From NCBI GenBank assembly GCA_019234945.1, contig JAFAKX010000067.1, positions 1 to 50,637 on the forward strand: a stretch of DNA of 50,637 nucleotides. The letters are read 5' to 3'. Numbering within the stretch: the stretch's first letter is position 1; every line of letters begins with the position of its first letter. Under the pieces are notes generated by a model that saw only the letters and a list, made by a program, of their open reading frames with translations, made no database searches and was not told where the DNA came from. The translations under genes and the position numbers were made by a program. Origin of the DNA: Silvibacterium sp. GTDB lineage: Bacteria; Acidobacteriota; Terriglobia; Terriglobales; Acidobacteriaceae. Of this stretch, positions 15,572 through 47,360 are shown one piece after another.

Positions 15572-15647
15572 TGGAGCACCGGGCGGGGATTGAACCCGCG
15601 AATACTGGTTTTGCAGACCAGCGCGTTAGCCACTTCGCCACCGGTGC
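15572..15647 (-). tRNA. tRNA-Cys (GCA)
   Basis: GCACCGGTGGCGAAGTGGCTAACGCGCTGGTCTGCAAAACCAGTATTCGCGGGTTCAATCCCCGCCCGGTGCTCCA; 7-bp acceptor stem, A13/A22, U73, encoded CCA. Confidence 0.96.
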
Positions 15648-15694
15648 TCACGGCCCGCCACAAAATCGTGCGGCGGGATCATGCGAAAACGTTG

Positions 15695-16351
15695 TTACTG
15701 CGGCTGCGCGGTGGTGCGCAGGTAGGGCTTCACTGTCTTGTAGCCAGGGAAGATTTTATCCGCTTCTTCGTTTGAGACCGCGCCGGTGATGATGACGTCT
15801 TCGCCCTGCTTCCAATCTGCCGGAGTCGCGACGCGATGCTTCGCTGTGAGCTGAATCGAATCAAGCACGCGGAGAATCTCGTCGAAGTTGCGACCCGTGG
15901 TCATGGGATAGGTCAGCGTCAACTTGATACGCTTGTCAGGGCCGACGACAAAGACGGCGCGCGCGGTTGCGTTGTTGGCCGGAGTACGACCTTCGCATGA
16001 ATCGCCCGCATCCGCTGGCAGCATATCGTAGAGCTTGGCAATTGTCAGTTCGGGGTCGCCGATAAGGGGGTACTTCACGGCGTGACCAGTGACTTCCTCG
16101 ATGTCCTTTGCCCACTTGCCATGATCGGACACCGGGTCGACGCTGAGGCCGATCACTTTGGCGCCCCGAGCCGCAAACTGATCCTCGAGTGCGGCGACGG
16201 CGCCGAGTTCGGTTGTGCAGACGGGAGTAAAGTCCTTGGGGTGAGAGAACAGAACAGCCCAGTTATCGCCGATCCACTCGTGGAAACGGATGGTGCCCTG
16301 CGTGGTTTCGGCAGTGAAATCTGGTGCGATATCGTTGATCCGAAGTGACAT
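15695..16351 (-). CDS. Peroxiredoxin, 1-Cys/Prx6 type
   Basis: HPKDFTPVCTTELG, long C-terminal domain, start MSLRINDIAPDF with SD GAGAGG. Confidence 0.92.
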   Translation of the reverse strand: MSLRINDIAPDFTAETTQGTIRFHEWIGDNWAVLFSHPKDFTPVCTTELGAVAALEDQFAARGAKVIGLSVDPVSDHGKWAKDIEEVTGHAVKYPLIGDPELTIAKLYDMLPADAGDSCEGRTPANNATARAVFVVGPDKRIKLTLTYPMTTGRNFDEILRVLDSIQLTAKHRVATPADWKQGEDVIITGAVSNEEADKIFPGYKTVKPYLRTTAQPQ

Positions 16352-16395: not shown

Positions 16396-16431
16396 AAAAA
16401 CCCACCCGGCATTCTAGCAGCGGGTGGGTTT
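16396..16431 (-). terminator. Intrinsic terminator-like hairpin in the peroxiredoxin 5' leader (putative attenuator)
   Basis: Minus strand AAACCCACCCG-CTGCTAGAATGC-CGGGTGGGTTTTTAG: 11-bp stem followed by T tract, upstream of (not downstream of) a same-strand gene. Confidence 0.8.
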
Positions 16432-16462
16432 GAGAATTTCGAAGCTTGTCAGTTCGATTCGC

Positions 16463-16537
16463 TCATACACACACCCGCACGGGGCAGCAGCGACAGCAGC
16501 AGCACAGACACATGCAGGTTGGAGCGATCCTGGTCAT
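16463..16537 (-). CDS. Poly-cysteine leader peptide (24 aa)
   Basis: Minus-strand ATG...TGA: MTRIAPTCMCLCCCCRCCPVRVCV; 9 Cys of 24 including TGC TGC TGC TGT CGC TGC TGC; ends 31 nt before the terminator stem. Confidence 0.7.
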   Translation of the reverse strand: MTRIAPTCMCLCCCCRCCPVRVCV

Positions 16538-16609
16538 AAGGTGTAAACGGCGGAGGGACTCCGCTTCACAACAGTGAGAATATGCCTTGAGGAAGGTGGT
16601 GTCAATCGG

Positions 16610-22680: not shown

Positions 22681-22755
22681 GCGGGAGTAGCTCAGTGGTA
22701 GAGCATCGCCTTGCCAAGGCGAGGGTCGCGGGTTCAAGTCCCGTCTCCCGCTCCA
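22681..22755 (+). tRNA. tRNA-Gly (GCC)
   Basis: GCGGGAGTAGCTCAGTGGTAGAGCATCGCCTTGCCAAGGCGAGGGTCGCGGGTTCAAGTCCCGTCTCCCGCTCCA; canonical cloverleaf and CCA. Confidence 0.97.
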
Positions 22756-22837
22756 GTCAGTTCGGATCAGATACGGCAATGCACGCGTCGCCGGACTGGC
22801 TTCGTTCAAGCCGCCTGAATTAGTATTTCCTGTCCAA

Positions 22838-22917
<80 letters not shown>

Positions 22918-46208: not shown

Positions 46209-47360
46209 CTACGCCGTTCTGTGCTTTGCGCGCATTGCAAGGAATGGCCGTTCAACCGCCCAGTGCAGTGCCAGAGCTGCGAGATACGCCGCGACACCGC
46301 AGACCGACCACACAATCAGGCGCCCGCCATGAATATGCGCGGAAACAATCTCGATAGCAGCGCCGTGAACCAGATAGAGCGCGTAGCTGAGTGTCCCCAG
46401 ATGCACCAGCACCGGATGGTTCAGAGGCCGCGCCAGCCATGATTTGTCGTAGTGCGTCACCAGATAAAGAATTGGAAGCAGCGCGATGCTCTGCAGCGTA
46501 AAGCGGAAGGTCATTCGGCCGGACGCATGAAAGACAAAAGTGAGGGCCAGCAACACGAATGCAAAGGGGATAAGCCACAGCAGACGATTGTAAGTAAGCA
46601 GCTTTCGCCATCCATCGTGATGCTCGACCGTTGCCAGAAAGCATCCCCAGAGGATCGAATCGAGACGGGCATCGGTTGCCAGATAGCAGTACTCCTCCCC
46701 AAGCGGCATAATGCGAACCGCGATTATTCTCCACACCAGCACACCAAGACAAATCACGAAGAGCGCTCTTGATATTTGCTCGAAGTTCATCTTCCTGCGC
46801 AGCATCACCAGCAGCAGGAGAGGAAACAACAGATAAAAGTGCTCTTCCACACAGAGCGACCAGTAGTGACCGGTACCGGCTATATAGAAAGAGTGACGAC
46901 CTGCAGACAGATTCCACCAGAAAGCATAGTTCTCAAGATAAAGAGCTTGAAAGAAAAATGCGGATGCTTTGAAGGGAATCTTTAGTACGTGCCAATAGGA
47001 GAGCAGCGCACAAATGATGAGGACCGCATAGCCGCTCGGAAAGATGCGAAGCGTACGCCGATAGTAAAAATTGCGAAGAGAGATCGTCCCAGTTTTCGAA
47101 TGCTCGCGTAACAGCAGAGTTGTAATCAGGTAGCCGCTCAACAGAAAAAAGACGCTGACCCCAAAGCCCCCCGGCCGTGATCCCAAAAAGCCCATGTGGG
47201 AAACGAAGACGAGTAGAAAAGATAAAGCCCGTACACCGTCGAGACTCGGAATGCGCCCTGACCATTGCGAAGCGGGAAACAGCGAGAGGGGCGTGGCCGC
47301 GGCGCTAACCACTTCAGTTTCTTCATCAACAGTCAGCAAGGCAGAATTTGGAGACATCAT
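46209..47360 (-). CDS. Acyltransferase family 3
   Basis: SLDGVRALSFLLVFVSHMG, FFLLSGYLITTLLLREHSKTGTISLRNFYYRR, HYWSLCVEEHFYLL. Confidence 0.92.
   Translation of the reverse strand: MMSPNSALLTVDEETEVVSAAATPLSLFPASQWSGRIPSLDGVRALSFLLVFVSHMGFLGSRPGGFGVSVFFLLSGYLITTLLLREHSKTGTISLRNFYYRRTLRIFPSGYAVLIICALLSYWHVLKIPFKASAFFFQALYLENYAFWWNLSAGRHSFYIAGTGHYWSLCVEEHFYLLFPLLLLVMLRRKMNFEQISRALFVICLGVLVWRIIAVRIMPLGEEYCYLATDARLDSILWGCFLATVEHHDGWRKLLTYNRLLWLIPFAFVLLALTFVFHASGRMTFRFTLQSIALLPILYLVTHYDKSWLARPLNHPVLVHLGTLSYALYLVHGAAIEIVSAHIHGGRLIVWSVCGVAAYLAALALHWAVERPFLAMRAKHRTA

Follow-up and report, generated by a model that had tools for sequence, protein, structure and literature searches.

A predicted cysteine-codon leader attenuator upstream of peroxiredoxin and tRNA-Cys genes in Acidobacteriota

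Control by leader-peptide attenuators is textbook knowledge for the biosynthesis of amino acids and for certain tRNA synthetases. The E. coli trp, his, thr, phe and leu attenuators combine a short ORF carrying a run of regulatory codons with an antiterminator that competes with an intrinsic terminator. T-box leaders sense tRNA charging by direct tRNA binding, need no translated ORF and often end in a terminator. Genes for tRNA synthetases can also be preceded by leader peptides, for example in Streptomyces (PMC8079986). The uORFC-8-2 motif is a Cys-codon uORF followed by a terminator, which its published summary places only before cysS in Rhodobacterales and proposes as a sensor of charged tRNA-Cys (PMC8632094). 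The leaderless polycysteine ORFs of mycobacteria (Canestrari 2020) are cited as translational attenuators near Cys biosynthesis genes (PMC13236596). The PBC-28-3 RNA motif, found before ahpC, is summarized as a long stem whose conserved loop lies beside the start codon and as a proposed protein binder (PMC8632094). Among the attenuators predicted for Acidobacteria, almost none had an associated function in a 2010 survey (PMC2965389).

Here we analysed a 50,637-nucleotide stretch of DNA from Silvibacterium sp. (the window), in which a Cys-rich leader ORF and a terminator precede genes for a 1-Cys peroxiredoxin (Prx) and a tRNA-Cys (Table 1). The element has the short ORF, regulatory codon run and competing hairpins of the E. 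coli attenuators, but differs in its Cys codons, its occurrence in Acidobacteriota, its peroxiredoxin and tRNA gene targets and its weak protector hairpin. With uORFC-8-2 it shares the Cys-codon uORF followed by a terminator; unlike that motif it lies before Prx/tRNA-Cys in Acidobacteriota, and the cysS locus of the same genome (L273) has no Cys leader. It resembles the mycobacterial polycysteine ORFs, as summarized in the citing article, in being a short polycysteine ORF with Cys biosynthesis genes nearby and a predicted leaderless-like start in most relatives, and departs from that summary in its intrinsic terminator and tRNA targets. Like PBC-28-3 it is a cis element 5' of a peroxiredoxin gene, and the summary of that motif mentions no leader ORF. 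A sensor of tRNA charging combined with a terminator would also recall T-boxes, but an Rfam scan of the window listed only three tRNAs, with nothing at the leader and no T-box match. In the open-access literature we found no report of a leader-peptide attenuator acting on a tRNA gene or of this element, which is weak evidence of novelty.

We propose, with a probability of roughly 0.8, that the element is a trp-type ribosome-mediated transcription attenuator which senses how much Cys-tRNA-Cys is available and regulates an operon composed of 1-Cys peroxiredoxin and tRNA-Cys. When charged tRNA-Cys is scarce, the ribosome would stall on the leader Cys codons and leave GCGGGTG free to pair with CACCCGC as an antiterminator before the terminator 3' arm is made, and RNA polymerase would continue into Prx and tRNA-Cys. 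With ample Cys-tRNA, a ribosome at TGA would cover GCGGGTG, the terminator would form and transcription would end. Of the structural elements of trp-type attenuation that we tested for, the window has all but a firm protector hairpin: a short ORF rich in one amino acid, a terminator before the first gene, a conserved, mutually exclusive antiterminator that a ribosome at the stop codon would mask, and downstream genes linked to Cys. The preliminary description of the sequence had noticed the leader switch, but neither the more extensive protector hairpin nor the presence of a tRNA-Cys gene in the same putative operon.

Table 1. Predicted features of the attenuator locus in the window
Feature	Position	Strand	Basis or remark
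Promoter-like site TTGACA-17-TATTCT	16577..16605	(-)	consensus scan
Leader ORF, 24 codons, 9 Cys: MTRIAPTCMCLCCCCRCCPVRVCV, stop	16463..16537	(-)	ATG 16537, TGA 16465-16463
Segment 1 ACCTGCATG (codons 7-9), pairs with segment 2 as protector hairpin	16511..16519	(-)	1:2 fold
Main Cys codon cluster, codons 12-15 and 17-18	16484..16504	(-)	sequence reading
Segment 2 CGTGCGGGTG, containing GCGGGTG, the antiterminator 5' strand	16472..16481	(-)	pairing tests
GCGGGTG	16478-16472	(-)	third position of codon 20 to the end of codon 22
Inner antiterminator helix TGAG:CTCA	16465-16462 with 16434-16431	(-)	2:3 hairpin fold
Inner antiterminator helix TCGAA:TTCGA	16457-16453 with 16443-16439	(-)	2:3 hairpin fold
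Segment 3 CACCCGC, common to antiterminator and terminator	16420..16426	(-)	sequence and comparative tests
Intrinsic terminator AAACCCACCCG...CGGGTGGGTTT plus T tract	16396..16431	(-)	folding, homologous loci
Terminator 5' arm	16431-16421	(-)	holds CACCCG of CACCCGC
Terminator 3' arm CGGGTGGGTTT	16408-16398	(-)	runs into TTTTT 16400-16396
1-Cys peroxiredoxin (AhpC/TSA), 218 aa, first gene of the putative operon	15695..16351	(-)	PF00578, PF10417
Stem-loop between Prx and tRNA, without T tract	15654..15677	(-)	also in nearly all type A loci
tRNA-Cys (GCA), U73, CCA encoded, 47 nt 3' of the Prx stop	15572..15647	(-)	66.3 bits

The perfect complementarity of GCGGGTG and CACCCGC, and the placement of six bases of the latter in the terminator 5' arm, had been read from the sequence beforehand; both hold at the exact coordinates when checked base by base. 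When the upstream leader RNA was shuffled by mononucleotides, 7% of the shuffles contained a perfect 7-mer complement to a stretch of the arm (P 0.07). The 7-base complement is therefore unremarkable in the window alone, and comparison with other loci was needed. The window 2:3 duplex reached -16.3 kcal/mol versus a mean of -9.2 kcal/mol for synonymous recodings of the same peptide (p=0.01), and the complete 2:3 antiterminator hairpin with its inner helices reached -24.1 kcal/mol (z -5.2, below all 200 shuffles). The terminator fold came to -20.8 kcal/mol and the 1:2 protector hairpin, folded alone, to -18.9 kcal/mol. A small CCC-GTGC-GGG hairpin, previously pointed out as a competitor, is present, but it is only part of a larger rival in which codons 7-9 (ACCUGCAUG) pair with CGUGCGGGU. 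This 1:2 protector does not outcompete 2:3 in the truncated window RNA.

For the ribosome-dependent states, RNA was cut before the terminator 3' arm, and sequestration of the 5' arm was scored for each ribosome position, with the E. coli K-12 trp, his, thr, phe and leu leaders as controls of the procedure. The footprint logic suggested earlier, by which stalling frees GCGGGTG and a ribosome at TGA masks it, was reproduced: sequestration of the window arm was 0.89 for a ribosome placed on the Cys cluster versus 0.15 at the stop codon (0.87 without a ribosome). For the two translated states, similar values were obtained under the same procedure for trp (0.71 stalled, 0.02 at stop, 0.07 without ribosome), thr (0.90, 0.00 and 0.38), phe (0.84, 0.10 and 0.21) and leu (0.67, 0.01 and 0.28), while the his states were not separated (0.60, 0.60 and 0.41). 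Among related loci, which fall into the two sequence subtypes described below, sequestration was higher under stalling than at the stop in 20 of the 25 type A loci (p=6.6e-6) and in 18/18 type B loci (p=7.6e-6).

The complete window transcript at equilibrium forms the terminator even with a stalled ribosome, which at face value would match the refuting condition set beforehand, a pairing that is never competitive. The terminator likewise wins under stalling at equilibrium in the full E. coli trp, his, thr and leu leaders; as these controls fail it too, equilibrium folding is no test of co-transcriptional switches and was dropped as decisive. Because equilibrium favours the terminator even in the stalled state, the switch must be co-transcriptional and depend on kinetics. 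In these models the two translated states appear to act as proposed, and the untranslated state does not seem firmly off. The ribosome-free truncated window RNA prefers the antiterminator (0.87, versus 0.07 for trp), so the untranslated state may leak.

Prx homologs were sought in the same GTDB family and their upstream regions compared. About 45 loci of this one family have leader, antiterminator and terminator in the same order 5' of Prx, with Terriglobus albidus (L091) among the named carriers. Beside Prx homologs outside Acidobacteria the element was absent (genome contig scan among 80 Prx homologs). By their sequences, the loci fall into two subtypes of one design: type A (to which the window belongs; 25 loci) has leaders of the form ...CMCxCCCCRCC...VRVC before the stop, with GCGGGTG and CACCCGC, and type B (about 25 loci) has leaders ending in ...LCCCTRAPVCG before the stop, with CCGGTGTGTGGGTAG and ACCCACCCGGC. 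The Cys-rich leader is kept in both, with TGC and TGT codons both in use; nine of 24 residues are Cys in the window, against medians of 7 Cys per leader in type A and 4 in type B. At most homologous loci a TTGACA stands at the position corresponding to that in the window.

At each locus, 500 synonymous recodings of the ten final codons served as the reference for the duplex of ORF end and terminator arm; the native duplex was better at p<=0.05 in 13 of the 25 type A loci and in 16 of 18 type B loci. Cognate strands also paired better than swapped partners (p=0.0028 in type A, p=0.0016 in type B). Compensated variants occur in L009 (GCAGGTG/CACCTGC), L004 (GCGGGTT/AACCCGC), L008 (ATGCCGG/CCGGCAT) and, with one mismatch, L006 (GGCTGGGGTG/CACCCAAGCC). 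That is, the mutually exclusive 2:3 and 3:4 pairings noticed in the window are conserved in the roughly 45 loci, with compensatory changes that keep the pairing. Of 23 type A loci, 10-11 lack the two innermost pairs of the terminator, but 22 retain the antiterminator partner of the first inner arm base, which argues that this base is held for the antiterminator. Covariation across homologs, proposed as a check on the sequence reading, is visible in the compensated loci; column by column, the signal was modest for 2:3 and not significant for 1:2. The weak column-wise signal follows from shifts of register in the compensated loci. Column-wise covariation on the MAFFT alignment was set aside and the per-locus duplex tests were used instead.

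Downstream of Prx, a tRNA-Cys gene is found in every type A locus with a scanned downstream side. We built a covariance model from the leaders alone, trained on Prx-linked loci; a tRNA-Cys gene lies downstream on the same strand in 29/29 of its top matches besides the window (one of them without Prx), a count that is drawn from related genomes and does not represent 29 independent events. It is unlikely that the attenuator acts on Prx only and that the tRNA-Cys is a separate transcription unit placed behind it by chance. The stem-loop between the two genes could be taken to separate them, but it lacks a T tract and fills most of a spacer that is itself short (41-60 nt in most type A loci), so that a promoter would hardly fit. 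Moreover, nine loci have a model match directly 5' of tRNA-Cys with no Prx between (L193, L205, L206, L207, L211, L212, L213, L225 and L242), although the short ORF of L242 has no recognisable Cys run, the L207 terminator was not cleanly picked by the script, and the 2:3 pairing tests in the nine were individually mixed. The stem-loop without T tract would fit a single transcript that is processed later, and may be a processing signal. At L225 the attenuated tRNA-Cys is followed on the same strand by a phage-type integrase gene, possibly reflecting tRNA-targeted integration.

All 20 genomes checked have at least two tRNA-Cys genes, so the Prx-linked copy is not the sole supply. The second tRNA-Cys in the window lies at 22838, within 22681-22912 on the (+) strand, behind a tRNA-Gly. 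Two distinct tRNA-Cys types coexist: the second has 75 nt and the acceptor GGCGCGG, the Prx-linked one 76 nt and the acceptor GCACCGG. In five type B loci (L027 at 2254-2351, L244, L251, L255 and L262) a tRNA-Sec (anticodon TCA) stands directly 3' of Prx on the same strand, in the position held by tRNA-Cys in type A. On balance we favour the reading that the main conserved target of the attenuator is the gene of the very tRNA that is sensed: shortage of Cys-tRNA-Cys would switch on a second tRNA-Cys gene, with Prx recruited into the unit in many lineages and, elsewhere, a tRNA-Sec standing behind the same Prx.

Across the class Terriglobia, the covariance model matched in 113/399 genomes, and a search of the phylum gave weak matches in 4 genomes outside the class. 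Weaker matches lie 5' of genes for sulfite reductase (PF01077/PF03460), CysD (PF01507), a CysK-like PALP enzyme, rhodanese, TauE and an AhpC-like Prx; in 36 such loci pooled, 2:3 pairing exceeds recoding (12 at p<=0.05, Fisher p 2.8e-8). The genome of the window has one such leader, MVRATQTRFCCCLSSTSDGCTQ before the stop with ACGGGTGT/ACACCCGT, about 100 nt 5' of CysD (L271), with a poorer terminator hairpin. At its sulfite reductase, CysH-like and cysS (L273) loci a Cys leader was sought and not found, and its other model matches that we examined (including 46749-46864 in the window) showed no Cys leader with terminator, several of them lying inside coding sequence. By eye, Cys-leader matches at L220 and L235 stand before carboxypeptidase-like/TonB-type outer membrane proteins, which perhaps serve the uptake of sulfur compounds. 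The associations with tRNA-Cys and with sulfur-assimilation genes make Cys-tRNA charging the likely signal.

These associations bear on the idea that the Cys-rich nascent peptide is itself the sensor, with metal binding or oxidation arresting the ribosome and Prx under an oxidant- or metal-responsive switch. Metal binding or disulfide formation is conceivable for clusters like CMCLCCCC, and the first downstream gene encodes a peroxiredoxin, but we consider a peptide sensor improbable: peptide sequence varies widely among loci while Cys codons and RNA pairing persist, and the same design stands 5' of sulfate assimilation genes and tRNA-Cys. A Thr-run leader (MATTTIITTTITTT...) 5' of an aspartokinase gene (L240), with Thr codons in place of Cys, is likewise unexplained by a metal-binding peptide. 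This leader, together with a Thr-rich leader sequence 5' of another aspartokinase (L238), accords with codon-specific sensing as in the proposed attenuator. With their CCCACCGCC terminators, the L238 and L240 leaders show the same design with another amino acid in Terriglobia.

By the predicted -10 element, most type A and B leader ORFs would be leaderless or nearly so (0-17 nt from the end of the -10 to the start codon in most relatives, median 7-10.5 nt), the window with 39 nt being an exception. The short distances would suit translational rather than transcriptional attenuation, as reported for the mycobacterial polycysteine ORFs, but we regard this as very unlikely, given that almost all type A and B loci have a strong intrinsic terminator with T tract and that the tRNA-Cys targets are not translated. 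An ordinary terminator after a short ORF with a chance 7-base complement, which the shuffles of the window alone would tolerate, is already contradicted by cross-species conservation, the recoding and partner-swap tests and the compensated variants, and can practically be dismissed.

For the proposed trp-type attenuator, the physiological trigger might be a shortage of Cys, its loss to oxidants or a loss of tRNA-Cys. Of these, oxidant loss of cysteine and loss of tRNA-Cys are candidates for a condition in which Prx and the tRNA would rise jointly under a Cys-tRNA signal. A class-wide, testable Cys regulon can now be proposed for attenuators of Acidobacteria. Control of the cognate tRNA gene by an attenuator would place tRNA abundance itself within the feedback, and a peroxiredoxin coupled to Cys-tRNA charging suggests that the ribosome may let a cell sense oxidant damage to its pool of cysteine.
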